The position numbers and the translations under genes were made by a program. From the NCBI GenBank assembly GCA_020744425.1, contig JAGMUV010000057.1, positions 1 through 64,000 of the forward strand: a stretch of DNA of 64,000 nt. The letters run 5' to 3'. The notes below the pieces were generated by a model, which was given only the letters and a program-made list of their open reading frames with translations, was not told the DNA's origin and ran no database searches. How positions within the stretch are numbered: position 1 is the stretch's first letter; every line of letters starts with the position of its first letter. The stretch comes from Dactylonectria macrodidyma (taxonomy: Eukaryota; Ascomycota; Sordariomycetes; Hypocreales; Nectriaceae). Positions 1-56,316 of this stretch are shown in pieces.

Positions 1-282
1 AGTTTCGAGTGGAGACCGAGAGACGCTTGTCTTGCTGCCACTCTCGGGGTTGCGTTTGTCTCCGTATGCTTGACGTGCGTCTTCGTCCCTTTTCTAAGCT
101 TTTTGGCGCCGGCAGAAGCGGTGATGTCCGGCGCGCTATTTTTATTCTCGCCCTTAACTACATTATAATATTTCAAAGAGCTGCACGTGCGGAGGGTTGA
201 GCTTGCCTTCCGTCGGTTGCGTTGCGTCTTAAACCCGATAGGGCAAGAGAATGGCATCGAGGCTGACATTTGCCGTACACAT

Positions 283-334
283 GTACACACACACACACAC
301 ACAGAGAGAGAGAGATATATATGTACTGTATAAG

Positions 335-376
<42 letters not shown>

Positions 377-388
377 ATATATATCAAT
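283..388. repeat. Compound microsatellite (CA)n-(GA)n-(TA)n
   Basis: Three adjacent dinucleotide tracts: CA at about 285-301, GA at about 304-315 and a long TA tract at about 336-368. They produce artificial low-complexity frames on both strands. The remaining 1-789 shows no convincing gene. Confidence 0.95.
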
Positions 389-789
389 CCGAATCTATAT
401 GTTCCGCACCAGATATCAGCATATTTATCTGTTTCGCTGCCATTCAAGTCTTGTTGGTATTGTAGGTGGCACGTTTACGTCCAGAAAGAGGACACCAGCT
501 GGATATGGTTTTGTCCGGCCCAAAAGTATGCGGCCATGTTCCTTCCTATTGACAATTAAGTGGCCTCCATTTCAGCTGCAAAAGCGGCCATATACCTATT
601 TTGGCTCCGGTTGAGAAATGCCTTGCGCTTGTATGTTTCTTTCCTTGGCGATGCCTCCAGAATGCCCTACTTGTTCCTATATCTCGTGACCATACCATCG
701 CTTGCTGACCCATTTAAACTGCTTTCTTCGGCATCGCACCCCCATGCTATTCACGTGCAGGAGACGCAGCGGAGGGCCGGCAGCCGTAA

Positions 790-1536
790 ATGGAAATGAG
801 CCCTTGTTCCACATCATCCTTTTTGCCCTTTGCCTTGCTCCCCATTGAGCTGCGTCTGGTGATCTGGGGGATGGCCTTTCGGGGTGAAAGCCCCGCTGTA
901 TCGATCTGCCAGTTCTCGGAGAACAACCCGAAAGTCTCCATCGCTCATCGTCACGCCGCAGCACCCCGGTTCCCCCCCGCAGCCTCGGCCTGCTGGGAGG
1001 CAGAGAAGGAATGGCTGCGGCTCACGAGACGTTGTAGGTCGTCGGCCGGCACGTTTGATCGCGTCTACACACCGCGCACGATTTTCTTCGCCCACACGTC
1101 TGCCATCGTCGAGTCGCTTCTCAAAGGGCTCGCTCCGCTGATAGTTCACATTGCCTTTGATGTCACCGATTGTCCTGACTTGCTTTTGGTTTTTGAGGCC
1201 CTTGCGCAGTTTTCCCAGCTAGAGACGATCATTCCAATCATTCCGTCGGAAGCTTTGACACAGGAACAAATCTCCCAAAGGAAGGACAACTTGCACCGAG
1301 ACGCCTTCCTTTTGCGGCGTATGGTCGCGCTGATAGACGAGCCATCTCAAGATGGGGAATGGCATGAAGACACACATGTGGGTTGGCTGTTGCGGAATGA
1401 TCTGGATGGAGAGCATGTGCGGGGGTTCTATGCTAGGGACGACAGTCCTCGCATCAAGCTCCTTGTTGATAGCCCCAGAAACACTGAGTCAGCAGTAGAA
1501 AATGCGATGAATCCATGGTCATTAGTATTGTATTGA
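790..1536 (+). CDS. 2EXR-domain (F-box-like N-terminus) protein, unknown function
   Basis: Single-exon frame of 248 codons. Residues about 14-30 (LLPIELRLVIWGMAF) match the signature that opens fungal 2EXR proteins, an F-box-like L-P-x-E-L-R-x-x-I-W helix. Later the chain has a Trp/Glu-rich patch and a FDRVYTPRTIFF segment, in the place where 2EXR proteins usually carry an aromatic strand. The family is greatly expanded in filamentous ascomycetes and has no known biochemical role, so function is not inferred. The last 30 or so codons (ending NPWSLVLY) lie inside duplicated segment A. A diverged version of that tail recurs at about 5640-5760 without the rest of the gene, so the reading frame may have captured its C-terminus from the repeat. 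Confidence 0.6.
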   Translation: MEMSPCSTSSFLPFALLPIELRLVIWGMAFRGESPAVSICQFSENNPKVSIAHRHAAAPRFPPAASACWEAEKEWLRLTRRCRSSAGTFDRVYTPRTIFFAHTSAIVESLLKGLAPLIVHIAFDVTDCPDLLLVFEALAQFSQLETIIPIIPSEALTQEQISQRKDNLHRDAFLLRRMVALIDEPSQDGEWHEDTHVGWLLRNDLDGEHVRGFYARDDSPRIKLLVDSPRNTESAVENAMNPWSLVLY

Positions 1537-1647
1537 ATTATTGTCCTCCCTTTCCCGTGTGGTTGCCTTTCTTCATCTTGCTTATATCCAGTGCTTCGCA
1601 AAACCGGTACTTCGCCTCACACCCCATTCTTTTGCTGTTCCCTCCCT

Positions 1648-1725
1648 CTTTCTTCCTCTCCCTTTCTTCCTCTCCCTTTCTTCCTCTCCCTTTCTTCCTC
1701 TCCCTTTCTTCCTCTCCCTTCTCTC
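1648..1725. repeat. 14-bp pyrimidine tandem repeat
   Basis: About five copies of a 14-bp unit (CCTCTCCCTTTCTT) lie just 3' of the 2EXR frame, in non-coding DNA. A run of 18 or so T follows near 1776-1793. Confidence 0.9.
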
Positions 1726-1791
1726 CAAAGTTTCACGTATCAGCATCCAAGACTTCTTCGCATGAAACCAAGAATTTTTTTTTTTTTTTTT

Positions 1792-3131
1792 TTAACACGC
1801 TAGCCCCAGCATCGGCAAGTGTTGTTGTACAGGCACGCGAGACGACATCTGTCCCGCAGGGTAGCGTTCTCGATACATCTCAACTAAGGAGCTTCGAATT
1901 TTGGGCTCAGAAGTGACCTGCTGGCACGCATGCCTCAGCTTCTGAAGCTTGGATAAGAATGCTGCACTTGTGATGTTGATTGTTTCTATGTCCGCGTGTG
2001 GAGGCAAGGGCACACCTCGTGATGCAGGAGACTGCGCGTGCTGAGGGCTGATGGGTCGATGGGGGGAAACGGGTTCCATCGCAGCTGTCTCAGTGACTTG
2101 ATAGCGTAGGGCTGGACATGCAGGCGCAGATGCGGGTGGAGATGCGGGTGGAGATGCGGGCGGAGATGCGGGCGGAGATGCGGGCGGAGATAGCAGATCA
2201 AAACCACCAAAACCATCAAAGTTCATATCCAAGTCTAGGTCAAATGTGAAGTCCACTTCCATGTTTGCCAAGTCGGCATCATCAGGTACTGGACCCATCG
2301 CCCAAGCCTCACCCTCTAGGATTGCCGATAGTTCGTTGGGCAGATCAAGAGCCTCCTGGCTCAACTGCATGCCATCGTCGACTGTTTCCTGAGGCTCGCC
2401 TTCGGCGTCTTCACCTGTGGCGCCGTCTAGTTGCATATCCGGCAAGGCTTGCGCATCTGACGCACCATTGTAGGCTGGCTCGCCTTGTGGAGTCGGTGCA
2501 TGTACAACGCCATCTGACACCGTCAAACCTCTGCCGGAAGGGTCGCCAACCTCCGGCTGGGCAGGTCCTGGGGTGTCAGGGACTTCGTATATCCCCGCGT
2601 CCCCACCAATGGACTCGGTGTCGCTGTCGGCTACTGTAATCTCGGGGAGGACGGGCACTGCCACCGTTACTTTGCCCTGGCGCTTCGATCGGCGCTGGTT
2701 CTGCGGCTTGGTCTCGGTCTGCAGCTCGGCCCCGGTCTGCAGCTCGGCCCCGGTCCGCGTCGTTTTGATGGCTGCCTGCTGTCTAACCCTTGTGGAGCGG
2801 CGTAGAGGCTCTGTCTGCGGAGTCTGAGCATCTTGCAACAGTTGGTGGGCCTGTAATCGTGTAAGCTGTTGTCTTTTTTTTTTCTTTTTTTTTAGGGCCA
2901 CATGAGCGCCCATAACCACAAGGAACTTACCAGTTTGTTCATGTCCGGTATCCGCTGGCCCTTGGGAACCCATATTGCCCCCTCAAGCCTGTCATGCGTT
3001 GGATTGTAATAACCTACTATCGAGAAGATGTCGCAATCTTTCCCCAAAGCTAGAGCCTTGCGCTTCGCAGTTATGGACCTCTTTCGAGCCTTGTCTTTCT
3101 GCTGTGTCGTGTGCTTCTTTTGGACAGCCAT
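1792..3131 (-). CDS. Two-exon protein with weak MADS-like N-terminus and acidic middle (copy A)
   Basis: Exon 1 runs 3131-2931 (67 codons) and exon 2 runs 2850-1792, giving about 419 aa. The donor is CTG|GTAAGT and the acceptor TTACAG|GCC, both in phase 0. The 80-nt intron contains a poly-A run on the coding strand. The N-terminus (about residues 15-45) is basic and then has GKDCDIFSIVGYYNPTHDR, loosely like the SRF/MADS fold (R/K-rich, then a hydrophobic strand), but the match is weak. The middle is acidic with DFTFDLDLDMNFDGFGGFD, an activation-domain-like stretch, followed by five PPAS units coded by a 12-bp repeat. The same exon pair recurs in copy B, which supports the splice sites. A transcription-factor role is only inferred. 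Confidence 0.5.
2128..2192. repeat. 12-bp coding minisatellite (PPAS repeat)
   Basis: About five units related to GATGCGGGCGGA inside exon 2 of the copy A MADS-like gene. Each unit adds four residues (P-P-A-S) and keeps the frame. Copy B lacks this array and has a different 12-bp array instead. Confidence 0.9.
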
Positions 3132-3207
3132 GGCCGAGGGGCGTTTGTGGAAAGGAAAGATGGTGCCGTTACTGCACAGTAATGTATGTACCAACGCAGC
3201 GAAGAGC

Positions 3208-3677
3208 CTATGCTTTTGCCATCAATACATCATCAAGTTTTAGACGCATCGGCGGAAGCATATTAATATTTGGACCCAAAGGACGGCCTGCGATGAACGC
3301 GCATCTCCGCTCATTTCTCCAGCGTCCACTTTCATCACGAATCCCTCGCGGCAGCATGTTGCTCGCCATCCCAGGCACTTCGTTACCAGGCTGCCGGGAC
3401 AAATCCTCGCACATTCGGGCCAGAAGATGGCATAGTCCGATGTTGGCCGACGGTGCTTTTGCGATGGCCCATCGTACTGTACTGTACAGTGCATCAACTG
3501 CCGACTCAGCAAGCTGTTGGTTGTTGGTTGTTGGTGTTGGTTGTTGGTTGTTGGTAGTTGGTTGTTGGTCGTTGGTCGTTGGTCGTTGGTCGTTGGTCGT
3601 TGGTCGTTGTCCCATACTGACATCACGTCGGCCACCATACGTGACCTCATATCGGCGTCCACACAGAACAGATGCAT
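3208..3677 (-). pseudogene. Conserved unknown coding-like segment shared by both duplicates
   Basis: Minus-strand frames here resemble minus frames in copy B at 6603-6803. One shared stretch reads DLSRQ in A and DLSQQ in B. A second reads REGFVMKVDAGEMSGDARSS in A and REGFMVKLDAGETNGDTCSS in B, followed by QAVLWVQI or QAVHWVQI. The two conserved stretches lie in different frames of copy A, so at least one frame change has occurred. A heptanucleotide array interrupts the upstream part. I do not recognise the family; this may be a decayed gene or simply conserved repeat DNA. Confidence 0.3.
3516..3610. repeat. 7-bp minisatellite (GTTGGTT / GTTGGTC)
   Basis: Two blocks of a heptanucleotide: first mostly GTTGGTT with a GTTGGTGTTG interruption, then a run of GTTGGTC. 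The array is absent at the matching place in copy B (near 6830). Confidence 0.95.
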
Positions 3678-4745
3678 GCTCCGATCATGATGGAGGCGAT
3701 GCTACCTGGGTCCGCGGCGGCGAACCTGTCCGCCAGCCCGGTTCTGATGGAGACTGCATGACTGTTTGGTGGCGCGATGGTGGTGTGGGGTGTGATGGAA
3801 CGGTGGGCTCCATTATTACGGCGGTGTCCAATGACGGGCCGTTCCACCAGCGCGGTTCCGGTGGGTACCACATCACGCCAATCTCCGCGATCAAAAACAG
3901 GGGGACGAACCGATCAACGTACGCACGTACGGAGCCAGATGAGCATATACGAGGTTGAGTTGGAAACCCACTGGCATCGTGTGGTGAAACCTCGGCGGAA
4001 ATTGCCAGTGCAGCCAACAGAAGGCACTAGCACACCGCGTTGTGGGGGTCTGCGACGTACCACGTTAATGTAGAACTACCGGTACTTCGAATGTCGATCA
4101 GATTTTCAATCGTGACCCCTGGGCCCGCAATACGTAGATTTTCCTCCAACAGTTCGTAGAAGCAGAGTAACACAAAGGAGCGGGATGGCGAAATGGTGGT
4201 GTCGATGTGCATCCAGGATGTTCCGCCGTCGCCGCTTTCAGTCCAGCGACATTGCGTACCCTATAGTAGTCTTGCCCCGGGCGAAAAACATGCATACATA
4301 CATGATTAACTGTGGGTGGAGCCGCGTCCCCATGCAAACAAGGCGCGTAATCAATCTATGTTTTTAAACAGGATTCTGGCTCGCCATTCGTGTCGGTCCG
4401 GGCGTCCGGGTAGGGCACGTTCTCCGATGTCATGAGCCGCTCGTGTGTGGCTCGGTCCTCTCCTGGGTGGAGCATGCGATCTGGTGCCTCATAATGGTAG
4501 GTATCTCTGTGGACAAGTGCGCAGAACCGTGTTGAGCCCATGGGTCAGTGTCAGCCAAGGGTTCTGGATGCTACGACCTGCTGTTTCGGCCTACTGGACT
4601 GAACGGAGTACGCGATTGTATTGCTCCGCTGGGATCCCTTAGCTTCCTAAAGTGGAATGGGTTTAAAGCCATGCCCCTCGATACCACGTCGAGGCAGGCG
4701 GAGCGACTGATGTGTCGGCTGTGGATGATGCAAATTCTTTACTCC

Positions 4746-4938
4746 ATGCCCCATGCTCCATGCTCCATGCTCCATGCTCCATGCTCCATGCTCCATGCTC
4801 CATGCTCCATGCTCCATGCTCCATGCTCCATGCTCCATGCTCCATGCTCCATGCTCCATGCTCCATGCTCCATGCTCCATGCTCCATGCTCCATGCTCCA
4901 TGCTCCATGCTCCATGCTCTATGCTCCATGCTCCATGC
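4746..4938. repeat. 7-bp minisatellite (ATGCTCC)n, about 27 copies
   Basis: A nearly perfect array of ATGCTCC with rare variants at the ends (CCC for TCC, TCT for TCC). Because 21 nt encode seven residues, all frames are open and give an artificial MLHAPCS heptapeptide. At the matching position of copy B (about 7900-7925) only two or three degenerate units remain. Confidence 0.97.
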
Positions 4939-5963
4939 GAGTGGAGATCCCCGCGCTCTAGACGATGATGGCATCAGCTGCTCCAGCAAGGTTCCCCTTC
5001 ATCCGTGGTTCTACCCGATGCTTGAAGCGCGCCGCACGGTCCGGCCCCGCTCAGGACTGTGAGCCATGACAAACCACGCCGAGGTTCGACCGCCTCGGAG
5101 TCCAACGTCATGGCTGGTCTCAACCCCCAAATCTCATGCCTTGCAATTTCGGTTCTTCGACTTCTGAAAACTATCATATGTTCGCCTACCTAGCCTCTTC
5201 GACTAGCTGCTGCTTAGTGCAATCGCCATCTAAAGAGCTTAGTGCAATCGCCATCGAAAGAAGTTGCCGCTACTCTGTAGACTAGAGCTCTCGCCCCACA
5301 ATTACGAGGAGATAATCACCCGCGCCAGTAGCCAAGACGACATGGAAAGCTTCGACACGCCAAGGCTCGGGCCGCAATCCGCGGCGGCTAGCTACCATAG
5401 CAGACCCGTTGGTCTCATGCGTCCAGAACCCACAGCCAGAGCATGCACCTGAACCTGCCAGACCATCTTGGAGTCAGACGATGTAGTGCGAGCACATTGG
5501 CCGTGATTATGTGGCTCCCTGATGGACGGAAGACGAATCGTACACCTCAAACAAAGACACCACATTTATCAGGGCGGTGTAAACCATGCACGACCGTGCA
5601 TGCTCGTTATAGGCCAGCGAGCTTGGAGGCGCATGCTCCGACCATGATGGTCACGTCAAACTTCTCGTCGATAGACCAAGAAAACAGTGAATCACTGGTA
5701 GTAAATGTGATAAATCCATGGTCATTGGTACAGTACAATATGTGTATGTACATATTATATTGAATTATTGTCCACCCCTCCCCGTATTGATGCCTTTCCT
5801 CCTTTCTCCCATACATAGTGCTTCCCTGCCATTTCAGTATGCAAGCCCAGGCAAGTGCTGCACGGAACAGGGACATCCATATCACCCGGCAGCGTTCCTA
5901 ATACTATACATCTAGACCATGAAGATTCGGATTTTAGCATCGCAAACGAGCTGGAAGCTTGCA

Positions 5964-6447
5964 TCACTCGGCATCCGTATCCGGAGGTTGGCCAACAGTC
6001 CTGCATTTATGATGTTGATCGTCTCCATGCTCAAGTATGGGTGCAGACATACACCGTCCGATGTAGAGGACTATGCGGGCTCTTGCCATTGCTTTGTCTC
6101 GGCGCCCGAATCGGCGCTTCAATCGGCGCTTCAATCGGTGCTTCAATCTGCACTTGTCCTTCGGCTTGGCCTCGGATTGGGTCTTTTTGATGGAAACTTG
6201 CTGTTCAGCCGCCACCCGCAGTTGACGGGTCTGTAATTGTGTAAGCTGCTGTGTTTTCTTTCAATGCCCACTAGCACAAGGCACTCACAAGAGCGTTGAT
6301 GTCGGGTGCAGACTCGCCTTTGGGAACCCAGATTGTTCCCTCAAGCCTGTCATGCGTTGGGTCATACCAAGCTTCCACCGAGACGGTGTTATCATTTTCC
6401 CTCGAAGCTTCGGCTTTGCACTTCGAGGTGCGCTTGTCGACTGTCAT
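5964..6447 (-). pseudogene. Shortened and frameshifted copy of the MADS-like gene (copy B)
   Basis: Exon 1 is 6447-6289 and exon 2 starts at 6230, with donor CTT|GTGAGT and acceptor TTACAG|ACC, both aligned with copy A. Exon 1 still encodes YDPTHDRLEGTIWVPKG, close to YNPTHDRLEGAIWVPKG of copy A. Exon 2 has lost the acidic and PPAS region and gained a basic RLKHRLKRRLKRR stretch from a 12-bp tandem repeat. The frame then ends at 5964, while the residues matching the copy A C-terminus (METINI, like IETINI) lie in another frame. So the splice sites survive but the C-terminus is broken: probably a decaying paralogue of about 141 codons. Confidence 0.5.
6107..6152. repeat. 12-bp tandem repeat (CGGCGCTTCAAT)
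   Basis: About four units inside exon 2 of the copy B MADS-like relic, coding for RLK(R/H) on the minus strand. It arose independently of the 12-bp array in copy A. Confidence 0.85.
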
Positions 6448-7249
6448 GGCCGAAGGATGCTTGCGGAGGAAAAACCAATGGCGTACAACAGTATAGAGTA
6501 CTGTACGGTATGTATAATACCAACGCAGTAAAGAGCCTATGCTTTTGCCATCAATACAGTACTATGTATCATCAAGTTTTAGACACATGGATGGGAGCGT
6601 ATTCATATCTGGACCCAATGAACGGCCTGTGATGAACACGTGTCTCCGTTTGTTTCTCCAGCGTCCAATTTCACCATGAACCCCTCACGGCGGCGGATTG
6701 CCGCCGTCCCAGGCCCTCCATTACGTACGGTACCAAACTGCTGGGACAAATCCTGGCACGTATGGGTCATAAGAAGGCGTAGTCTAGTGTTGGACGATGG
6801 CACTTTTGCAATGTCACGCCCTCCTCAAGCTGTTGGTCTTTACCGACATCATGTCGGCCGCTACGGGCAACCTCGCATCGGCGTCCACACAATACGGATG
6901 CATGCTCCAATCATCACGATGAAGGGGGCCATACTACGGTATAATGCATGTACTATACATGCTTGAGTTTGCAACGGTTTCCAGGGCCCGGTATCCCCTG
7001 AGGATGTACTCCATAAGGCGACAGCGTCCAATGGCTCTGGCCTCTCACCCTTCCGCACCGTAAACTCGTACAATAAGCGACCTTTAGTGGCTACTACACA
7101 ATACAATCATCGCCATCAACAACAGGGGCAGTCAATGTATATACGAACGAAGAACAAGGTGTTGGGAATCTGCTGGCATCGCATGGTGGAACCTCAGCGG
7201 AAATTGCCAGTAGGTCCCCCTAACTTTACTTTGTTGGTTGGGCGCGCCA

Positions 7250-7275
7250 TCAGCCGTCAGCCGTCAGCCGTCAGA
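7250..7275. repeat. Short 7-bp array (CAGCCGT)n
   Basis: Three or so perfect CAGCCGT units in copy B, absent from copy A. It is the third unrelated heptanucleotide array in the duplicated region. Confidence 0.8.
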
Positions 7276-8165
7276 AGGTACTCCTGGCTCGCTATCCTGA
7301 GAAGAGTGGCATCGGAATTGATGGCTTTGGTGTCTTGTCTTAGAAACCAAAATTACCTACCCTATAGCCTCACGCTCCAAGAGTTGGGCTCAGCCCAGCT
7401 TGATGCCATCCCCCATCCTCCTCATGTGAATGCTATCGCTATCGGCTTACGGAAATACACATTCCATATTCCAGGTCCCATGAACTGAAAAAGGAGGCCG
7501 AAGAGGGCACGGGGCCAATTGCGAATCCAGCATTTTCAGCAAAAGGTTTGCGTTGTCGACCCACGCGGCGTTATGCATGGGTCATCGCTGGGCGTGCCGG
7601 CTGCGAGCCCCTTGTCCTCGGCTCGGACCCCCGAGTGGAGTCGCGGTCAAATGACTAACCACTCATGCAGCTCATGTTGCTGCTCTCAGGGATGGACATC
7701 CTGGCGGCGGGTGAATACGGAAATAAACAGCAAGCAAAGAGAATCCTGGAAGGCCCGAGCCACGACCCGCTTCGTGCCTTTGCTGTGATGGGATCTCCCA
7801 GCTTTCCTTTCTGCAATGAAACCAGGTCCTCGATGCTCTGTCAAGACTGACGCATCGACTGATGTGTTTGCCATGGAGGCTGATGAATTTTTCCAATTTT
7901 TCCCATGCTCTATGCTATGTGCCATGTGGAGATCCCCACAACTATACGATAGCGGTCGTCGCAGCTGCGTCAGGCTAGTCGCCACAGCAAGACGTTGGTT
8001 GCCCTTTCCGTCCACGGTTCCACCTGGATTCTCGAAACATGCCGCGCGGTTCCGCGCTCTTGGCTGTGTCATGCAATTTCCCCGTCTTTCAATTTCCGGC
8101 AAGCGTCAGGTCTTCGCTGACCCAGCGTCCTCGAAATGATGTGATTGAGTGCGATCGTCATCTGA

Positions 8166-9246
8166 GAAGTGCAGCTAGGCGGAAAATCCTTCCCTGATGT
8201 GACTTTGAACAGGCGCTTCATGGCTGGGGCCACAATGCGTGGCGACTTAACTACTCATCCCTCGTGCGTCATTTTCCCCTTCCCTAAGCGTGGTCGGAAC
8301 TGACGGAAGTGGCGCATGTATTTAGCTGAGTGTGCTGCTATTTGGCACCAGGCCACCTTGAAGAAATAGTCCCAAAGTAAAACAATATGGTGTCTGCTAT
8401 GTAAAGCTAAGCAAACCCGCGCTTCTAGTTGCTGACGAGCATCGACAACGATGGAGTCTTACCCATCCTACGTCGTGGATTGCGTGCCATGCCTTCCATA
8501 GTCTATCTTTGTCCACGCAGCTCGGTGATCGGCCGGGAGTCAAACATCCGAGTTCTGGACGTTGCTTCGTACCCTTGCCCAGTTTCGGTCTTCCTCTTTC
8601 TCCGTCAGTTCTGTTCCCCGAGACAATCCCAACCGCCAAGCCGGTGATTTCCCGCCTTGCGGTTAGACTCCAGACACAGTTTATGCCGGGGTGGAGGACC
8701 GCTCGACGGCCAGCCACTGTGTCCTGGCTTCCATGGTCGGCGTCTTGGCTGCACAAATGACGACGGACCGGAGCAGAGAGGCAATGTCCGTGGGACAAAT
8801 ACACCGAGTCCGCAAGGTAGACAGGAGGCAAGCCGTCGAACGCTGAACTTTGAGACGGCCTCGGGTCAGAATTGTTCATTCTATCTGCACAAGCAAATGG
8901 ATAGTCAAATGCTCATTTCTCTTTCTTTTTTGGCCTTCCATTTTACCAAGCGTCGTACCTGCATCTCCATGTCCGTGCCCAATGTAGCCGGGCTTCCAAC
9001 TTTTCGTCTCCTTTCATGGACCCTGGTTGGTGTGTTGGTTGGTGTGTTGGTTGGTGTGTTGGTTGGTGTATTGGTTGATGTGTTGGCTGTGTTCAATTTT
9101 GGCTGCGCTGGACCAGGCAGTCGGGGCCGAAGCACGGGTGGTATATATCATGAGAGAATGCCAGCCATATGTGCCCGTAAACCAGACTGTTCTCTTGCTA
9201 TTGTCTGTTTCCCGGCCTGTCCTTAGGCATCACACTGCGGCGTGTC
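8166..9246. other. No supported gene; 12-bp minisatellite
   Basis: I find no convincing gene here. A 12-bp repeat (GTTGGTTGGTGT and variants) occupies about 9024-9083. The minus-strand frame over it (8905-9135) gives NTPT repeats, and the minus-strand frame at 8397-8879 resembles no family I know. Confidence 0.6.
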
Positions 9247-10430
9247 ATGAACAATTTACAGAAAATTCCGTTTTCCCAGCCTGTAAATTCCCTAGCAGCC
9301 CTCCAAAAGCCACCTAGGGACCCCAGGCGGAGAAAGCTAAACAGGAGGGCCGCCGACCAGCAACAGAGGCCCGCACCTCCGGTATCTCAATTTCCGCCAT
9401 CTCAGATTCCACAGTCCCAACTCCAAATCCACCAGCATCAACCACAACTCCAACCACAACTCCAACCACAACTCCAACCGCAACTCCAACCACAGCTTCA
9501 ACCACAGCTTCAACCACAGCCTCAACCACAACTCCAACCACAGCTTCAACCACAGCCCCAAACATCTCACCCTCAAACACATCCGTTTCAGCCGTTTTTA
9601 TCTCAGACAGCTCCACAAGCTCAATTCCCCTATGCACAAGAGTATGTAGAATGTCCGGCCGCTTTGACATCAATGCTGACGTGGAGAAGCGGTATCGTGC
9701 CCCATCAAAGGAACCAAGCTTTTGATTTGGCTGGATATGGCAGCCAGACTATAACGCACATCGATGGAGAGGACCCAGATGATGTAGATGATACAGAGTA
9801 GGCGCATTTCTCCCTCCGCATGCACCGCATTATTCTGTAATAAGGCTAACCGGCATATAGTTTAAACAACCAGTGAGCGCGCACAGACGCACCAAGGTAT
9901 TGGTGCTTGATGCTAACCTTTATTAGAGTTCTGGAACAGTGAGTCGGCGCAGTGTCTGCCAGAGTTCCTTCACTAACCACGCCTCAGACTGGAAAAGTTA
10001 AATGTCAGGTGAGATTTGCCTCCAAGTTCACACCAATGGTTGACATCCCAGCTGACCGGTCCTTAGAATGAGCGCAATGGACGAAAAGTAAGCTATCCTG
10101 CTCCACTCATACTGCATATACGAACCGTTTGTTTAAAGAATCAGTTAACAAGGCAACTTCTGTTATTCTTACTAATATCTGCTTAGGATGAGCCATTTGG
10201 AACACGTGTGAGTTTTAATGCAGGTTACCTTGTTAGCATGGTACTGATAGTGGTCTTCAAGCATGCAAGACTTGCCGGGACTTATGGCAGACAAGGTATT
10301 TCCAAAATTATCACAATTCATCATTGCCTGGATGAAAGTGGATGGGCAAGCGGCAGAAGGAAATGAGCGGCGCGGTTCCATGGAACCTGCCCAGATAGCA
10401 TCGCAAGAGAGCGTCGAAGTGCCTCATTGA
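9247..10430 (+). CDS. Seven-exon gene with five in-phase microexons encoding a heptad coiled coil
   Basis: Exons: 9247-9797, 9861-9872, 9927-9938, 9988-10008, 10067-10087, 10187-10207 and 10262-10430, giving 268 aa. Every intron (49-99 nt) has a GT donor (GTGAG or GTAAG type except the first, GTAGGC), an AG acceptor, and a CTAAC, CTGAC, CTAAT or CTGAT branch site. All junctions fall after codon base 2, and the microexons are 12, 12, 21, 21 and 21 nt, so any can be skipped without a frameshift. Exon 1 is basic, then Gln/Pro-rich from a 12-bp repeat, and ends acidic. The three 21-nt exons encode LEKLNVR, MSAMDEK and MSHLEHV, ideal heptads with Leu/Met at a and d. Exon 7 continues with MQDLPGL and MADKVFP. 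The apparent stop of exon 1 (GAG TAG) is the first splice donor. Function is unknown; an oligomerising protein with adjustable coil length is inferred. Confidence 0.8.
9443..9562. repeat. 12-bp coding minisatellite (QPQL repeat)
   Basis: Tandem units related to CAACCACAACTC inside exon 1 of the microexon gene. Each unit encodes four residues of the P-Q-L-Q pattern, so length changes keep the frame. Confidence 0.95.
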
Positions 10431-10639
10431 GAACAGACGTGTCACATATAGACCACTGTTGCATTGCTCTAAGTGGGGATACTCATTTTTGTGACATGTA
10501 GTGTGGTGGTAAAATCTAACAAGACGTCATCTTTTGGCTTTAAACTACGTAATTTTGTCTACTAAGAGAGACAGTACATGCAACGCAATTCCCACTCAAC
10601 TTTGAGTGGATTGCAGCTCCCCCCCCCACCACCTACGGT

Positions 10640-14062: not shown

Positions 14063-14490
14063 GTGTCATCATTCAATGCCTTATTGGGTTACTTAGGTCA
14101 TCTCATCACTTCGTACCTTCGAGATATCGAGAGAGCGTGACTTCATTGACAGTTACATTTCAACCTCGCCCAGGATGTTTTGAATTTCAATTTCGATCCC
14201 ACCTATGGATAATGACCCGCAGTAATTTGGTACTGTAAGGGCCAAAATGCACTGGATTATGATAGGTTCCAATTCAATATTCGACTTAAATTCAACCGCC
14301 TAAATCGACCGTCCCAAAGCAGGCCAGAGTTACACACACATATATAGCCAGCATTAATCGCGCGCTCGATCTGCCACTGATCCTGGCGGTGCCTCCTTGT
14401 CCTAATAAAACTTTGATAACAACCCAAGTTTGAATCTCGCTTCAAATTATCTTGTGGTTAACATTCGTAACGAGTCTAAATCTCCGCGTA

Positions 14491-15564
14491 ATGAACGACG
14501 ACAATCCAATAAGTCCCAATCCGAACAAATCTTGGAGGGGAGGACCACCCCCACCACAAGAGATAGATTATGAGATACGACGCTACGGTGGCACTACAAC
14601 GGCCTTTGATTCTGTGGAAACACAAATACAAACCAACAAACCACAGAACTCTATTCGTGATTGGGTGGTTACACTCAACCAGGAGAATGGAAGGCTGCAA
14701 ATTGAGAGCTACTACTACAGAAACTTAGTTGCCGAAGTGCTAATGAGTCTGATCCCGCTAATTCGTTTCCATAGCAGCCATATCTGTGATGTTGTCAACA
14801 AGTACACCTCAAATATTGAAAGTGCTACAACTAGCCTTAAATCTATCATGAACTTGGGGTTGAAAAATTCATCCCATCCAATTATAGCCGGCGCCATGGC
14901 AGGGGGCCATCCTTCAAAATCTCGGTATAGCGACGTGGAAATGCAGCAGGTCAACCATAAAGGAAGTGTCGATTTTTCACGTATCCAGAGTCCTCTGTTC
15001 ATTACATCTCATCATAACAAGTGTAGGGATTATGGCTCAACTCAACAGCTGGTTGTTGACCTCACTCGCGAAAATGGGAAATTAAGATATCAAATTTCTC
15101 ATGACAAGAATCTAGTTGCTAATGTACTCATACACTTGGCGACTGGACTAACATTTCATTCTAGCGGCCTCGCCTCATCTATACAAAGGTTCAACGCAGA
15201 GATTCAAATCTCCACCGATGACTGGCAACACCGAACTGAATCCCACCCCGAAAAAAAGCAAATCAACGAAGAAAGGGTTTCCATCAGCGGACTCGGCTTA
15301 CATGACGAGAATATACAACTGCCTAACGACGGTCTTTGGAACGATCTAAACAGTTCTCAATTTCCTTTGACCGCCGAAGGTGTGCCGAACACGATTTCTG
15401 ACTCTATCATTGACCTAAAGCGTCAGATTGAGGAGCTTCAATGTCAGTACACTTACTATAGAGACCTAGTCGACTACGGATTGGCGCATTTCATTCCGTT
15501 GATACAATTCCACTCGAATGAGCTTCGACATCTCGTTGGCATATGCGACGAGGAATCTTGGTGA
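14491..15564 (+). CDS. Protein with three repeats of a helical ~35-residue unit
   Basis: The open frame begins at 14452, but the Met at 14491 (MNDDNPISPNPNKSW) is the more natural start, giving about 357 aa. Three related units occur near residues 65-105, 185-225 and 310-350. Each has a polar helix (LNQENGRLQ, LTRENGKLR, LKRQIEELQ), then a Tyr/His-rich patch, R/KNLV or RDLV, and a hydrophobic end containing FHS (IPLIRFHSS, ATGLTFHSS, IPLIQFHSN). Low-complexity linkers separate them. The unit resembles the short helix of the neighbour at 15980 (MENCQLKRDRQVVADEV). I recognise no named domain. Internal duplication and the local relatives suggest a lineage-specific expanding family. Confidence 0.55.
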   Translation: MNDDNPISPNPNKSWRGGPPPPQEIDYEIRRYGGTTTAFDSVETQIQTNKPQNSIRDWVVTLNQENGRLQIESYYYRNLVAEVLMSLIPLIRFHSSHICDVVNKYTSNIESATTSLKSIMNLGLKNSSHPIIAGAMAGGHPSKSRYSDVEMQQVNHKGSVDFSRIQSPLFITSHHNKCRDYGSTQQLVVDLTRENGKLRYQISHDKNLVANVLIHLATGLTFHSSGLASSIQRFNAEIQISTDDWQHRTESHPEKKQINEERVSISGLGLHDENIQLPNDGLWNDLNSSQFPLTAEGVPNTISDSIIDLKRQIEELQCQYTYYRDLVDYGLAHFIPLIQFHSNELRHLVGICDEESW

Positions 15565-23301: not shown

Positions 23302-24476
23302 ATGATACCTGTCACGAGAGCTTACCATCGTGGTGATGCCTGCCAGAAGCAGTTCCATGCGTCTGACTACATGGAAAAGATGGGCACCCATACCCCTGCC
23401 CAGATAAACACCTGTGACCCCCAAGGCAGCATCGCCGCCGAGCTTTCCCGGTTAGACGGTGCAAGGTATCTCGAGGATATCAAGCTACATACGAAGCACA
23501 TGGAGGCAGGTTTAGAGAATCCTCTTCTATATGCCTAAACGCTAACAGTTAGCAGGACCTGACTCTCCCTGACGTTAGCTTCATCGACATGCAGCGTGAG
23601 ATTCAGTGGCACATGAGGCCCTGCCTTATCGACTTCCTCGTCAAAGCTCATACTGAGTTTTCCCTCTTACCCGAGACCCTCTTTCTGACAGTCAACGTCC
23701 TGGACCGATACTGCTCAAAGCGAGTCGTGTACAGAAGCCACTACCAGCTGGTTGGGTGTACAAGTTTGCTCATCGCGTCCAAGTACAGTGACGAGAAAGC
23801 CAACATTCCTCAGATCTGCGAGCTCAATAGAATCTGCTGTGGAAAGTATGATGATGACATGTTCACCCAGATGGAGATGCACATACTCAACACTCTCGGG
23901 TGGTTGCTCGGCCACCCAACTGTGGGCTTGTTCTCTCAATTGATGGTTGTAGGAGAGGGTGACGACCCGGAAGTTGAGAGTATGGCCGCCTATATCAGCG
24001 AGGTGGCTCTCTACTATCGGGATTTTGTCTCTACCAAGCCGTCAACGATAGCTCGATGCTCTCTCGTCCTTGCCAGAACCATCCTCCGTCACTCCGAACT
24101 TGAAAGCAGAGATTTCAGTGGCGTGGAGATGGATATTCTGCGGGCTCTCGTTACCCGTCTCCCCCAGCCTTCCAAGACACTTCGAAATAAATATTCAGGA
24201 GAACGTTTGCATGGAGTCTCCCGCAAGTTGGCCGACTTTGTGAAAGCTAACTGGCAAAGGAACAGCGTTCCAGGCTCCCCCGTTACCCTTCCTGTTCAAC
24301 GCTCTGACTCCGACACCCCTCAAAAACGACGCATAAGCGAAACGCATAATGGCTATCCAACCCCCGGAGTTACCCCTAAACCCGTCTGTTTCTCAGCTCA
24401 ACAAGAGCCTCACAACACGGTTAATAACTCGATGTGTCACTCGGCAGAGCACAAGCCTAGGAACAGTCATAGGTAG
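23302..24476 (+). CDS. Mitotic B-type cyclin-like protein with probable GC-AG intron
   Basis: Exon 1 runs from ATG 23302 (or Met at 23371) to GAG ending at 23505; exon 2 is in frame from 23553 to the stop at 24476, about 375 aa. YLEDIKLHTKHME ends exon 1 and DVSFIDMQREIQWHMRPCLI opens exon 2, the continuous start of a cyclin box. The box goes on with SLLPETLFLTVNVLDRYCS and LVGCTSLLIASKY; a cyclin C-terminal fold follows. Joining at the only nearby GT (23510) leaves the frame off by one. A GC donor (GAG|GCAGGT) with the TAG acceptor at 23552 and a CTAAC branch restores it. The alternative is a one-base frameshift. The tail after about 290 is Pro/Ser-rich. Cyclins activate CDK1-type kinases in the nucleus. 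Confidence 0.75.
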
Positions 24477-49181: not shown

Positions 49182-52100
49182 TCACTCGTCCGGTCCGACA
49201 ACTCCCAGAGCATTCCGGAATAACTGAAAGCGATCCTTTGGGAGTGCTTTTGTGAGTCCATCAGCCACTTGTTTGTCGGTCGGGATATATTTCATCTCGA
49301 CCTCACCGCTGGCCGTCTTTTCTCGCACAAAGTGCTCCTGAATCGCAATGTGCTTTGTGCGGGAGTGGTATTGGGGGTTTTTGGCCATTGCTATTGCCCC
49401 TTGGTTGTCCCCGTAGATGATTGTCGCTGCGATTTGGTCTGTGGCGCTTAGGCCTCCCAGGAGTTCTTGTAACAAGGTTCGCAACCAGATGGCTTCCTTG
49501 GTTGCCTGTGTCTGTCCCATGTATTCAGCCTCGCAGGTAGACAGCGCCACTGATTGTTGTCGCTTCGCAGCCCAGCTTATCGCGCCGCTGCCAACGTTGA
49601 AGATGTATCCCGCAGTGGACTTTCGAGTCTCGGTATCTCCAGCCCAGTCCGAGTCCGTGTAGCCTGTCAACGGGCGAAGGTCTCCTCGGAACTCGAGCTT
49701 GAAGTCGCAGGTTCCTCGTAAGTACCTCAAGATGCGTTTCACCGCCTCTTCGTGGGCCTTGGTAGGTTTTGTGAGATAGCGGCTGCATAGTGAGACGCCG
49801 AATGCGATGTCTGGTCTGGTCCCTAGCATCGCGTACATCAGACATCCGATTGCCTTGGCGTACCAGTGCTTCCGGTCTGAGTGAGTTTCGCTATCGTCGA
49901 GGGCAGGTTCTAGCTTCGCTGTTGCCACTGGGGTCGCAGTCGGTTTGGAGTCCCATAGTCCGAATTCCTTCAGGACTTTCTCAATGTACCCCTTTTGCGA
50001 GAGGCTCAGTCTCCGCTGTCTGCGGTTCCGAGTAATCGACATTCCTAGGTAGAAATGGCATGGCCCCAGGTCTGTCATGCTGAACCGCTGGTTGAGGCTT
50101 TGTTTGATCATCTCGATGTCCCCTTTTGATGGTCCTGCAATGAGTAGGTCGTCCACGTAAACGGCAATATAGGTTTGGCCTTTGACGAAGACACCCATGT
50201 CGGAAACCAGGGGCTGGAATCCCTGTTCTTGGAGGAATAACGAAAGAGTCTGGTACCATATTCTAGGTGATTGCTTCAACCCATATAGGGCTTTTCGCAG
50301 TTTCCAGACTCTTCCGGTCCCGTCATTGAAGCACTCTGGCTGCCCAACGTAGATTTCTTCGTCGATATTCCCGTAGAGAAAAGCAGTTTTGACATCCATT
50401 TGTTCGAGTTCAAGGTCAAGCGCTGCGGCTATAGCGAAGATTGCCTTGTAGGTCATAGGCTTGACGACTGAGGCAAACGTTTCGTTGTAGTCGATTCCTT
50501 CTTGTTGCTCGAAGCCTCGGACCACGTAGCGTGCTTTAAACCGCAGGATTTCTCCATTCGCTCCCCTCTTGAGTTTGAATACCCACTTCCCCCTCAGTGC
50601 CTTCCGGTTCGGTGGCAGCTTTGATAAGGTGTAGACTCCGTTCTCCTTAATGGAGTCCATCTCGGCAGTCATTCCCCTGAACCAGTTCTCCCACTGAAGG
50701 GAATCTTGGGCTTCCTTTATCGTTCGAGGTTCCGCCTCGTCTTCCAAGGAAGCCGCAAGATTGACGTGAGCGCACACGAGGTTTGTGAGAGTATTGGTTC
50801 CTAAGAGCAGGTACCTTGAAGGAAGCTTTGCCTTGGTCGATCTCTGCGAGACTCGGAGCTCTTCGTCCCGGTCTATCACCTCGGTCGGGTCATGTTGAGG
50901 CTCGGATGTTCGTACATGAATAGTGTCTGCTTCATCCTCCGACATAATTTCCTCAACCTGTGGCGTGGCATCGTGTCGTGGCAGAGCTGCTTTCTTGGGT
51001 GAAAATTCTAACTCTGGATACAAGGTAGGTCCATCGCTTCTCGTTCTCTTTGATCCAGTAGGTGTTCCTTTTGCCTCGTGAAAGCTGGATTCGTCGAAAA
51101 TGACATTGTTGGCGACGAAGACTCGATTGTTGTTGTCTACGACAATGTAGTTACTGGAGCCTTGATATCCAAGAAGCCGACACTGAATCGTCTTTGCACG
51201 CAGCTTTTGTCTTTTGACGGATGGCAATATTGCCCATCCATTCGCTCCAATAACACGGAGGTGAGAGAGGTCTGGCTTGTCTCCGAACCATGCCTCATAG
51301 GGTGTCTTGTTCAGGGCCTTGCTAGGGCTCCTGTTCCGTATGTACACGGCCGCGTAGAGGATATAGGGCCAGAGCTTTCGCGGCAGGTTTGATCGCTCGA
51401 GTGTAGGTGTAACCTTTTCTTGAAGCACTCGATTAAAGGCCTCTGCAATCCCATTCTGCTCATGCTGATCGGTCGCGGTATAGTAAATGCTGATGCCCTT
51501 GTTGTCGCAGAGGATGCATAGCTGGTCACTGCGGTTTTCGCCACCTTGGTCGACATGGAGGTAATGGCACCGACGCTCCGGCCTCTCGTACGTATCGAGG
51601 AGATATTTGAAACACCTTGTGAACTCGGACTTTTCTTTGACTGCGTATGCCCAGCCCATGCGGGTAAAGTCGTCGACGAAGACAACCCAGTATCGTGAGC
51701 CGTCATAGGCTGTGTCTGGAAATGGTCCTGCGATGTCCGCGTGGACGCATTCCATCGGGTACGTTCCTTTCCGGATTGACTTTCGGTGTGGTTGTTCTTT
51801 CTGTCTTCCGACTATGCAAGGTTCGCACTTTTGTCCACGTAGAATCGGATGAATGCCATGCGCCATTTCCTTCAGGGCCTTGATTCCGTTCTCGCTTAGG
51901 TGTCCAAGTCTTTCGTGCCATATTTGAAGTTCGGGGTCGCTAATGGTGAGTGACGCCAAGGCAGCATTGATCGCTTCGTCTGGCTGGTCCACAATATAGA
52001 TCCCTGATCGTACGGTTGCTGTCAGGATTACTCGGTTGTCGTGCGTCACCTTGGCTTGGTTGTTGGCGAAAGAAATTTTGGCCCCCTTCCTGGTTAAAGC

Positions 52101-53318
52101 AGATATCGAGACAAGGTTGACACGTCCTTCTGGGGAATATATTGAGTTGTCGAGCGCCAGGTGTCGCGGGCCATCCAGTCCTTTTAGCGGCAGAATATAG
52201 TTTCCCAGTCCCTGAGGAGTGATTTGTGTCTCTCCGATTCCGACGGTCTGTCCGCCGCTCCAAGGGCGAAGGGCGCTGAAGTTTTCCCTTTTGCAAAAGG
52301 TATGCATTGACGCCCCGCTATCCAGTACGTGTACTTGTTCAAGTAAATCGCTCAACCTCTGACCCTGGTATGCCATGAGCTGTATGACAGGTTCGGTGTG
52401 GATGGCAAGAGCATTCGTAACCTCGTCCTGGTCCGCGTTCCTGGTTCGGTCCTTGGTTCTTGGATGGTCTTGGCGCTGCCTTCTTCTAGATCGCTTGTCG
52501 TTCAGGCGTTTCTTGAGCTCTGGGTGAAGTAACCAGCATGCATCTGAAGTGTGCCCAAGCCTCTTGCAGTGGCTGCAGGTAGTGAAATTTTGTTCCTTGA
52601 TGGCAGCGACCATAGCAGCGTGCTTGATTGCCTCTTGGTCCTGGTCTTGTTGTTGCATCCGCTGGCTATGTTCCTCCTGCTCAGCAGCTCTAGTAGCTTC
52701 TTCGATAGTAGTGGCTGCCTTGATGATGATGCCTTCGATGTTCCGTTCAGGTAGCAAGCTATGGCTTTGAAGGAATGCAGTGAGGAACACTTGATACTTG
52801 GGTCCAAGTCCATTGAGGAACTTGTCCATCAGTTGTGGTTCTCCAATCTGACTGGTTTCATCTAGTTGAAGGATTTGGTCTCGGGTCTTCCGTAATTGTC
52901 GAGAAAAGTCGGATACACCTTCGCAGTTGTCTAGAGTAAGTCGACCAAACTTTTGCTGGAGGTCGTGGAATACACTGCTACCCTTGGGTTTGAAGTGTTC
53001 TTCCAGTGTTTTGAGGATGTCCGTTAATTTGTTGAGACCTTGGACTTCCTGTTTGGGACGGAAACCAAGTCGATATCGAACTGCACCACACGCTCGTGCT
53101 TGTTTCTGGTGCCAAGCATCTAGCTTTTCTTCGAAGTCAACTTCCGAGAGATTGCCTTGTACCGGTGGGTCCCGTTTTCTCTCCAGGAGATCGTCGTAGC
53201 CGGACAGGGCCAGTAGGTCTCGGATTTCCTCGTTCCAGTTGATCCAGCCTTCAGAGGATTCAAGCTTGGCGACTCCGGAAAGGTTTCCGCTCAGGTTCGG
53301 TTCTTTGCCTTCTGACAT
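49182..53318 (-). CDS. Copia gag-pol polyprotein, intact
   Basis: 1378 aa without a stop, ATG at 53318. Domains in order are a Gag (UBN2-like) region at about 20-220, a CCHC knuckle (CSHCKRLGHTSDAC, about 248-261), and an aspartic protease with DSGAS near 333. Next come GAG-pre-integrase and the integrase H-H-C-C zinc region (WHERLGHLSENG, then CEPC), and the integrase catalytic core (DIAGPFPDTAYDGSRYW). The reverse transcriptase has FLYGNIDEEIYV and the YVDDLLIAG metal site. The RNase H has TDSDWAGD, CEAEYMG and YGDNQGAIAMA. The protease-integrase-RT-RNase H order defines Ty1/Copia. Gag and Pol share one frame with no frameshift site. All catalytic motifs are present, so it may still be active. 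Confidence 0.97.
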   Translation of the reverse strand: MSEGKEPNLSGNLSGVAKLESSEGWINWNEEIRDLLALSGYDDLLERKRDPPVQGNLSEVDFEEKLDAWHQKQARACGAVRYRLGFRPKQEVQGLNKLTDILKTLEEHFKPKGSSVFHDLQQKFGRLTLDNCEGVSDFSRQLRKTRDQILQLDETSQIGEPQLMDKFLNGLGPKYQVFLTAFLQSHSLLPERNIEGIIIKAATTIEEATRAAEQEEHSQRMQQQDQDQEAIKHAAMVAAIKEQNFTTCSHCKRLGHTSDACWLLHPELKKRLNDKRSRRRQRQDHPRTKDRTRNADQDEVTNALAIHTEPVIQLMAYQGQRLSDLLEQVHVLDSGASMHTFCKRENFSALRPWSGGQTVGIGETQITPQGLGNYILPLKGLDGPRHLALDNSIYSPEGRVNLVSISALTRKGAKISFANNQAKVTHDNRVILTATVRSGIYIVDQPDEAINAALASLTISDPELQIWHERLGHLSENGIKALKEMAHGIHPILRGQKCEPCIVGRQKEQPHRKSIRKGTYPMECVHADIAGPFPDTAYDGSRYWVVFVDDFTRMGWAYAVKEKSEFTRCFKYLLDTYERPERRCHYLHVDQGGENRSDQLCILCDNKGISIYYTATDQHEQNGIAEAFNRVLQEKVTPTLERSNLPRKLWPYILYAAVYIRNRSPSKALNKTPYEAWFGDKPDLSHLRVIGANGWAILPSVKRQKLRAKTIQCRLLGYQGSSNYIVVDNNNRVFVANNVIFDESSFHEAKGTPTGSKRTRSDGPTLYPELEFSPKKAALPRHDATPQVEEIMSEDEADTIHVRTSEPQHDPTEVIDRDEELRVSQRSTKAKLPSRYLLLGTNTLTNLVCAHVNLAASLEDEAEPRTIKEAQDSLQWENWFRGMTAEMDSIKENGVYTLSKLPPNRKALRGKWVFKLKRGANGEILRFKARYVVRGFEQQEGIDYNETFASVVKPMTYKAIFAIAAALDLELEQMDVKTAFLYGNIDEEIYVGQPECFNDGTGRVWKLRKALYGLKQSPRIWYQTLSLFLQEQGFQPLVSDMGVFVKGQTYIAVYVDDLLIAGPSKGDIEMIKQSLNQRFSMTDLGPCHFYLGMSITRNRRQRRLSLSQKGYIEKVLKEFGLWDSKPTATPVATAKLEPALDDSETHSDRKHWYAKAIGCLMYAMLGTRPDIAFGVSLCSRYLTKPTKAHEEAVKRILRYLRGTCDFKLEFRGDLRPLTGYTDSDWAGDTETRKSTAGYIFNVGSGAISWAAKRQQSVALSTCEAEYMGQTQATKEAIWLRTLLQELLGGLSATDQIAATIIYGDNQGAIAMAKNPQYHSRTKHIAIQEHFVREKTASGEVEMKYIPTDKQVADGLTKALPKDRFQLFRNALGVVGPDE

Positions 53319-54996: not shown

Positions 54997-56316
54997 ATGA
55001 CCTCTCTGGCAAACGCCGAGACCTTGGTGGGGCCAAGCGGCCGCGTGTCGACGCCGATGAGGCTTCGAAGCATGAAGCGAAAGCTCGAGGACACTGCGAA
55101 AGAACCGAACAAAAGCAGCCGATATGCCACGAGAGCGACAACGAGAGCGACAACGATTGAAGGGGAAGCCGATCATGCGACAGACCCAAGGAAGGGAAAC
55201 AGTAGCAACAACAACGAGGGAAGGGCGATGCTCCAGAAGGCCTTGGAGCTATTGGGCGAGTACCGCGCTGAGTTCCAAGGGCTAAGGGAAGCCATCAAGG
55301 AGCAGAACGGGGTCATCAGCAACCAGCAAGAGGTAATTCGAGATTTGAAGGAAGCAGCTGAGGAGCAGCAAAATGCGGCCCAAGAGTTGAGTCAACAATT
55401 GGAAGACACCAAGAAGCAGATGGGCGATGAGTTGAAGCGAATTCGCGAACAACTTGAAGCTATCGCCGCGAGCGCGGCAGCTACCCCGCACATCTCTTTC
55501 GCTGACGTCATGCGATCGCCACCCTCGTCCCAAGCTGGCAACATCCCATCTAGCAACATATCGCCCTCGAACCTCACCGATACGTTTTATTACACGGTCG
55601 ACACATCGAGGGTGGAAAAGGAAGAAGCGGAGCTGATTACAGCAAGTGCTATCCGGACTATCGTGGAGAGCGAGGTACGTGCTGAGCAGGGCCAGTCCAG
55701 CTGGCGCTGCCAGGCGGTAACCAAGGACCGGAAGAGCCGGAACCGTATCAGGATCGTGTGCAGAGATGAAGCTGAACACCAAATGGTGAAACGACTGGTG
55801 GGAGCCAAGTTGGCACGAGGCGCCCGGGTGCTACGGGATGAGCTCTATCCCATTAAAGTGGATAACGTCAAGCGCATAGCAGTGCTGGATGAAGCGGGTA
55901 ACATCCGTACGGGAGCTGCCGAGGCCTTTGGAAAGGAAAACGACACGCAGATTGCAAAGATAGTTTGGCTAAGCAAAAGAGACATTCCAAAAGCATACGG
56001 CTCAATGGTCGTTTACCTTACCAAAGGCTCAGACGCAAGAAGGCTCCTCTCGGAGGGTTTCTTTTATGCTGGAGGAGAATCTGGATACGCCAGAGTGTTC
56101 GAACGCCGACCTCGCCCAAATCAGTGCTACAACTGCCAACAAGTCGGTCATAAAGCTTTCCAATGTAACAACACCCAGATTTGTGGAAAATGCGCAAAGG
56201 AAGGTCACCACCATAGCACATGCAACGAAACTATCTTCAAGTGTGTGCTCTGTGGGGGTCCCCACGAGTCGTTCAGCAGAAATTGCAAGAAGCTCTACCC
56301 TTCTCCGCATGAGTAG
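54997..56316 (+). CDS. LINE ORF1 (Gag-like nucleic-acid-binding protein)
   Basis: 439 aa, uninterrupted. Residues about 70-160 form a coiled coil (IKEQNGVISNQQEVIRDLKE, then LSQQLEDTKKQ). A middle domain follows, with DTFYYTVDTSRVEKEEAE, and the C-terminus has three CCHC-type knuckles: CYNCQQVGHKAFQC, CGKCAKEGHHHSTC and CVLCGGPHESFSRNC. ORF1 proteins trimerise and bind the element RNA. The stop overlaps the next start in ATGAGTAG (56309-56316), suggesting that ORF2 is translated by termination-reinitiation. Confidence 0.9.
   Translation: MTSLANAETLVGPSGRVSTPMRLRSMKRKLEDTAKEPNKSSRYATRATTRATTIEGEADHATDPRKGNSSNNNEGRAMLQKALELLGEYRAEFQGLREAIKEQNGVISNQQEVIRDLKEAAEEQQNAAQELSQQLEDTKKQMGDELKRIREQLEAIAASAAATPHISFADVMRSPPSSQAGNIPSSNISPSNLTDTFYYTVDTSRVEKEEAELITASAIRTIVESEVRAEQGQSSWRCQAVTKDRKSRNRIRIVCRDEAEHQMVKRLVGAKLARGARVLRDELYPIKVDNVKRIAVLDEAGNIRTGAAEAFGKENDTQIAKIVWLSKRDIPKAYGSMVVYLTKGSDARRLLSEGFFYAGGESGYARVFERRPRPNQCYNCQQVGHKAFQCNNTQICGKCAKEGHHHSTCNETIFKCVLCGGPHESFSRNCKKLYPSPHE

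Follow-up and report, generated by a model that had tools for sequence, protein, structure and literature searches.

The locus at 9247-10430 on the plus strand of the window, by which we mean the whole 64,000-nucleotide stretch analysed here, raises the question whether its gene ends at the stop codon of the plain open reading frame (ORF) or continues behind it through a series of very small exons. The window covers the beginning of contig C53 of Dactylonectria macrodidyma, whose genome comprises 77.3 Mb in 77 contigs. The first-pass annotation had proposed that a chain of microexons, all in the same phase, follows the 184-aa frame, and the exon sizes, the phase and the joined frame all turned out as claimed. 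Exon 1 (551 nt, 9247-9797) encodes a basic patch, QP-rich repeats and an acidic end, and the plain ORF ends just beyond it, at 9801, after 184 aa. It is followed by intron 1 (63 nt, 9798-9860, donor GTAGGC, which contains an in-frame TAG), microexon 2 (12 nt, 9861-9872), intron 2 (54 nt, 9873-9926, donor GTGAGC), microexon 3 (12 nt, 9927-9938), intron 3 (49 nt, 9939-9987, donor GTGAGT), microexon 4 (21 nt, 9988-10008), intron 4 (58 nt, 10009-10066, donor GTGAGA), microexon 5 (21 nt, 10067-10087), intron 5 (99 nt, 10088-10186, donor GTAAGC), microexon 6 (21 nt, 10187-10207), intron 6 (54 nt, 10208-10261, donor GTGAGT) and a last exon of 169 nt (10262-10430) that ends in TGA. Joined over these seven exons, 807 nt give a frame of 268 aa and its stop. 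The predicted internal exons follow one another directly, share one phase and have lengths that are multiples of three and do not exceed 51 nt, which is the layout of a symmetric microexon array.

All six predicted introns are in phase 2, and five of them have a donor that follows the GTRAG consensus, the exception being intron 1. Branch-like sites of the form CTRAY could be located by eye in each intron (CTAAC in introns 1, 2 and 3, CTGAC in intron 4, CTAAT in intron 5 and CTGAT in intron 6). The acceptors are TAG in introns 1, 2, 4 and 5, CAG in intron 3 and AAG in intron 6, the last being less favoured than TAG or CAG. The good intron signals noted before are thus present for the most part, but intron 1 has a weaker donor and intron 6 a weaker acceptor.

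When the predicted exons are joined, the peptide reads NNQVLEQ LEKLNVR MSAMDEK MSHLEHV MQDLPGL, and the coiled coil was called from the pattern of hydrophobic residues at the a and d positions of this predicted spliced peptide. Hydrophobic residues fill 9 of the 10 a and d positions, compared to 5 of the 25 others (35 residues; Fisher p = 0.0002), and the best of the seven possible registers was equalled in 7 of 5,000 shuffles. As proposed, the heptads LEKLNVR, MSAMDEK and MSHLEHV each correspond to a single 21-nt exon (microexons 4, 5 and 6, respectively), and every intron that borders one of these three exons interrupts the heptad at position g, between the second and third bases of the codon. 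Microexons 2 and 3, of 12 nt each, together contribute eight residues rather than seven. Because the a/d pattern crosses junctions that are present only after joining, it argues for splicing independently of the splice signals. The register had also been thought to continue through the last exon. This applies to its first unit, MQDLPGL, which has hydrophobic residues at a and d, but past this unit the pattern fades: the following one has a lysine at d and a proline at its end, and over a longer stretch of 53 residues, up to where the helix-like sequence ends, the count becomes 11 of 16 a/d positions versus 14 of 37 others (p = 0.04). A related protein, described below, moreover uses another frame in this part.

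To see how often such a chain of introns arises by chance, we scanned 264 kb of real DNA (the window plus 20 stretches of 10 kb each, both strands) with a strict rule, consisting of a GTRAG donor, a CTRAY branch site, the next AG as acceptor, introns of 45-110 nt and exons of 3-36 nt in multiples of three, and we compared the outcome with simulated 264-kb sets drawn from first-order (dinucleotide) statistics. The only strict chains of three or more introns in the real DNA were formed by introns 2-6 of the gene and by the copy of the gene on contig C28 that is described below, and there were none in 20 simulated sets. In 77 Mb of simulated DNA, again scanned on both strands, 56,481 strict introns started no chain, 272 started a chain of two and 2 a chain of three, and no longer chain was found. 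With a looser rule that still demanded exons in multiples of three, the gene and its C28 copy were the only six-intron chains in the 264 kb, and 10 simulations gave a mean of 0.2 four-intron chains per 264 kb and nothing longer. When the multiple-of-three demand was dropped as well, the real 264 kb contained two six-intron chains, which are the gene locus and its copy by way of a path with a 19-nt exon, and five four-intron chains; the simulated means were 2.1, 0.4 and 0.2 chains of four, five and six introns per 264 kb. The strength of the case therefore rests on good signals combined with frame, since bare GT/AG chains also arise in simulations that make no frame demand.

These counts bear on an alternative reading, under which the plain 184-aa ORF is translated as it stands and the exons behind it are a chain that arose by chance in 3' untranslated or intergenic DNA. 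Such a product would be in keeping with the reading frame itself, which is open over 9247-9801 and ends in a stop, with the weak donor of intron 1, and with the occasional six-intron chain under very loose frame-free rules (mean 0.2 per simulated 264 kb), but a chance chain of five did not occur under the strict rules, and the heptad pattern spans the junctions. Beyond the 264 kb, the microexon-array scans covered 10 loci and two further 5-kb sites; at the 10 loci (L003-L005, L011 and L034-L039) no chain of three or more loose introns with frame-neutral exons of up to 60 nt was detected. On the minus strand, opposite the microexon array, the loose rules also outlined a chain of four introns at 9931-10228 with exons of 6, 18 and 15 nt, present in both copies, which may be due to chance since the simulations give 0.2 four-intron chains per 264 kb.

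A further point against the plain ORF came from a protein database search with the last-exon ORF, which returned a single match, P0001 (E 3.2e-8), a 74-aa protein on a 564-nt contig (source: ENA). The C-terminus of this protein, VDGQAAEGNERRDSMEPAQIASQESVEVPH, differs by one change from the 30-residue tail of the window's product, VDGQAAEGNERR...SVEVPH, and this common tail lies downstream of the stop of the plain ORF. P0001 starts within a stretch that matches intron 6, which it crosses in the frame opened by the GTG of the donor; in this stretch 4 of 18 codons differ between the two printed sequences when compared by eye. Relative to the last exon, P0001 differs by four replaced residues, three ahead of the tail and one within it, by one extra residue and by one change of frame directly ahead of the tail. 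In P0001 an arginine replaces the lysine at the window's acceptor, which suggests that the acceptor of P0001 is located one base earlier, and splicing at either of the two nearby acceptors would place P0001 in its printed frame. The splice-supported frames of both genes would then reach the same tail by way of different first ~25 residues. Thus, P0001 lends modest support to translation of the tail, modest because a second frame change undoes the first by chance roughly one time in three, and at the same time it speaks against conservation of the coil over the opening part of the last exon. Taken with the chance expectation and the heptad pattern, the kept tail makes it very improbable that the plain ORF is the actual product.

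The first-pass annotation had suggested a search for homologues with the first-exon protein. A relative was indeed obtained, but through the last-exon ORF: residues 1-63 of the first-exon ORF gave five candidates in the protein database, none at E <= 1. Likewise, residues 125-268 of the 268-aa product gave 12 candidates, none at E <= 1. A search of viral contigs with the 55-aa last-exon ORF yielded 29 pattern stretches and no relative, and a search of genome contigs with P0001 as query yielded 94 stretches and no relative. The 268-aa product showed no Pfam family above its cut-off, the only match being Relaxase_C (E 0.089, 13.5 bits versus a cut-off of 30). In the PDB, 10 sequences were matched at E <= 10, the best E value (5e-6) belonging to circumsporozoite proteins, but the best stretches of all of these were confined to residues 26-123, and they were taken as low-complexity matches.

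Based on these data, we consider the locus to be a real, lineage-restricted, seven-exon fungal gene with a predicted C-terminal coil of four to five heptads encoded by phase-2 microexons, with a probability of roughly 80%. It is very probable that the microexons are genuine exons, at least in the ancestral form of the gene.

The genome contains another version of this gene. Positions 1-10437 of the window, including the whole gene, are 99.3% identical to a segment on the reverse strand of contig C28, with 6 mismatches and 4 gap openings. The two are identical over 7700-10253, and five mismatches fall within 10254-10345, so that the C28 copy equals the window gene through exon 6 and has a frameshifted last exon. 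In this last exon there are four substitutions, three of which replace residues (K to E, W to R and G to V), and a 5-bp insertion at the place of window position 10395 that creates an in-frame TAG; by reading, the frame ends 11 residues early at this TAG. The letters at the insertion are TA-CTG-TA where the window has TA, which we take to be the kind of mark left by a departing Tc1/mariner-type element. The near-identity breaks off inside the last intron, at ~10253, as if recombination between diverged copies had ended there, and we infer a recent exchange or duplication, involving two diverged copies, of the sequence that lies upstream of this point. As a consequence, the C28 copy is uninformative on constraint of the microexons. 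Either selection on this end of the gene is weak, or one of the two copies is in decay.

This brings up the reading that a once-functional microexon gene is now in decay, with copies that recombine and lose the last exon. It would account for the 5-bp insertion, early stop and residue-replacing substitutions (3 of 4) in the C28 copy and for the different frame that P0001 uses over the opening part of the last exon, and it would fit the presence of only two copies among the best candidates scored in the own-genome searches. The window copy, however, is intact from start to stop across six introns, and we regard decay as possible but doubtful. The searches in question were a DNA search with 9200-10430, which returned at least five matches (the gene, its copy and three short ones in the repeat region), a search with the coil piece, which returned at least two matches from two candidates, and a search with the first-exon protein, which returned at least nine, two of them the gene and its copy and the other seven weak and all overlapping the QP-rich part. 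No further gene copy was found among the best candidates scored. An upstream tandem copy of the gene within the window was also considered and rejected, as only repeat-region and short chance-level matches were present.

Directly behind the stop of the gene, at 10438-10525, the window carries an 88-nt insertion that is absent from the C28 copy, after which the C28 match resumes at 83% over 10526-10577 and then ends. The insertion has imperfect inverted ends (TGTCA...TAACA) and is 91-93% similar to repeats on contigs C31 and C29 (L040, L041), and would be a small dispersed MITE-like element by these features. Its use as a marker for more copies of the gene was rejected, since neither of these two repeats adjoins a match to the gene. 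The segment shared with C28 also contains an old tandem duplication (2908-4010 and 6266-7211) that is ~72-84% alike in pieces. Other features of contig C53 are a 2EXR-family ORF at 790-1536, an ORF at 14452-15564 that matches no Pfam family and in which three YYRNLVAEVLMSLIPLIRFHSS-type repeats were recognised by eye, and a cyclin-domain ORF at 23589-24476 (Cyclin_N, E 1e-33), which is probably an incomplete gene model because the Cyclin_N match starts at profile position 23. A Copia-type polyprotein ORF is open for 1378 aa on the minus strand at 49182-53318, and a LINE-like element that has zinc knuckles as well as endonuclease and RNase H parts is located at 54997-58655 (both labelled by eye); the latter recurs in inverted orientation near 132-138 kb of the contig with 90-98% identity. 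An Ulp1-type C48 peptidase ORF at 59118-60260 scores 20.2 bits against a cut-off of 20.7 and is followed by a charged helix-like ORF (60324-61028) with no convincing family. Finally, the contig has a 6-kb inverted repeat (L019/L020, ~84985-98100) with arms that are 94% alike and ~1 kb apart, and further inverted pieces on both sides of it.

How the heptad-sized exons came about was addressed by comparing them with one another. It had been put forward that coil length could be tuned by exon duplication, and the 21-nt units give a hint in this direction: identity among the three 21-nt exons exceeds that in composition shuffles with p = 0.034, with p = 0.0015 when the first unit of the last exon is added, and it was reached in 0 of 2,000 shuffles when two units are added. 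However, a shared coil constraint alone could explain this identity, and the introns are little alike. Among the 15 intron pairs z ranged from -0.78 to 2.52, the highest value being that of introns 4 and 6, and with a highest z of 2.52 over 15 pairs an origin of the introns from one another was rejected. Gain or loss of heptads, also envisaged earlier, was not seen: up to and including exon 6 the C28 copy does not differ from the gene, and P0001 spans only what matches intron 6 and the last exon. Another reading is that the microexons are real and constitutively spliced, with no regulatory role, as a by-product of phase-2 intron gain or of an old duplication of units. The weak similarity of the 21-nt units next to the dissimilar introns, and the same exon number in both genomic copies, agree with this, but random intron gain offers no explanation for the coincidence of exon and heptad edges in three exons. 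We give this reading an even chance.

The layout of the chain could permit regulation. It had been pointed out that heptads could be skipped without a frameshift, and this is borne out for every microexon: skipping any single one of the five leaves the frame open and gives a product of 264 or 261 aa. Intron retention has the opposite effect. In a phase-2 intron the first base completes a codon and the next three bases form a codon, and in all six introns the donor (GTGA, GTAA or GTAG) spells an in-frame stop (TGA, TAA or TAG) in this way. Keeping a single intron ends the protein at 184, 188, 192, 199, 206 or 213 aa for introns 1 to 6, respectively, and the plain 184-aa ORF is the intron-1-retained form, as the intron 1 donor holds the in-frame TAG. 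Each incomplete splicing event would thus make a clean cut at an exon edge. These donor stops are no evidence of selection, since they follow automatically from phase-2 introns with a GTRA or GTAG donor. A coil metered by splicing can be imagined, in which a 21-nt exon adds one heptad, a skip removes one and a retained donor acts as stop, giving a ladder of proteins from 184 to 268 aa whose oligomerisation would be set by how far splicing went; we consider such metering unlikely.

According to the reading that we prefer, a real seven-exon gene, the spliceosome would remove the six short introns by intron definition, and the 268-aa product would oligomerise through its coil. From its composition, with the basic patch DPRRRKLNRR, the QP-rich repeats and the acidic end, the N-terminal part is expected to be disordered. 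The product might be a nuclear or cytosolic adaptor, and an adaptor or transcription-related role is a guess. More speculatively, incomplete splicing, chiefly of the weak-donor intron 1, may produce the 184-aa form, which lacks the coil, or shortened coils that end at an exon boundary, or may channel the transcript into decay, and splicing would thereby set the amount of coil that is made.

Several known systems resemble this gene in part. Schistosome micro-exon genes share with it series of symmetric exons whose skipping causes no frameshift, but they encode secreted flatworm proteins, and we know of no link to heptads. The bicycle genes of aphids belong to an insect effector family and carry a secretion signal; in the N-terminus of the product described here, MNNLQKIPFSQPVNSL, no hydrophobic stretch typical of a signal peptide was seen by eye. 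Bicycle genes are described as having numerous short internal exons, with phase 2 in nearly every case, and a mean of ~17 exons and a minimum of 5 (PMC9168663). All five internal exons here are likewise in phase 2 and measure 12-21 nt, and the exon number of 7 is above that minimum but far below that mean; furthermore, bicycle genes are portrayed there as a large insect family of putative gall effectors, whereas the present case is a fungal one, with one gene, one copy and a coil. For the NACHT-ankyrin genes of Tuber melanosporum, reports describe codon-sized 3-bp microexons in the sensor domains of NOD-like receptors, together with alternative splicing (PMC4986451, PMC10197012). They also combine a fungal host with several frame-neutral microexons per gene, but theirs are 3-bp exons in sensor domains as against the predicted 12- and 21-nt exons and the coil here, and at Pfam cut-offs NACHT and ankyrin domains are absent from the 268-aa product. 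In Trichoderma virens, the zinc-cluster factor Xlr2 has a functional microexon that changes the protein, and the abstract states that functional microexons were previously undescribed in filamentous fungi (PMC11121469). Xlr2 has one microexon, as opposed to five consecutive predicted ones here. As far as the consulted portions of these reports go, exon length is tied to a coil heptad in none of the bicycle, truffle and Trichoderma cases. Human fast troponin T (TNNT3) has both a run of same-phase alternatively spliced exons and a heptad repeat domain (PMC2447309), but there the alternative exons are at the 5' side and the heptad domain derives from 3' exons. Among the literature matches listed, which covered few subscription papers, no fungal gene with heptad-sized exons was found.

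An annotation program that sets a lower limit on exon size would probably truncate this gene at the false stop at 9799-9801. If transcripts confirm the predicted exons, the gene would be a naturally occurring example of a coil whose units coincide with exons, and the question whether coil length evolves or is tuned through the number of exons could be tested directly.
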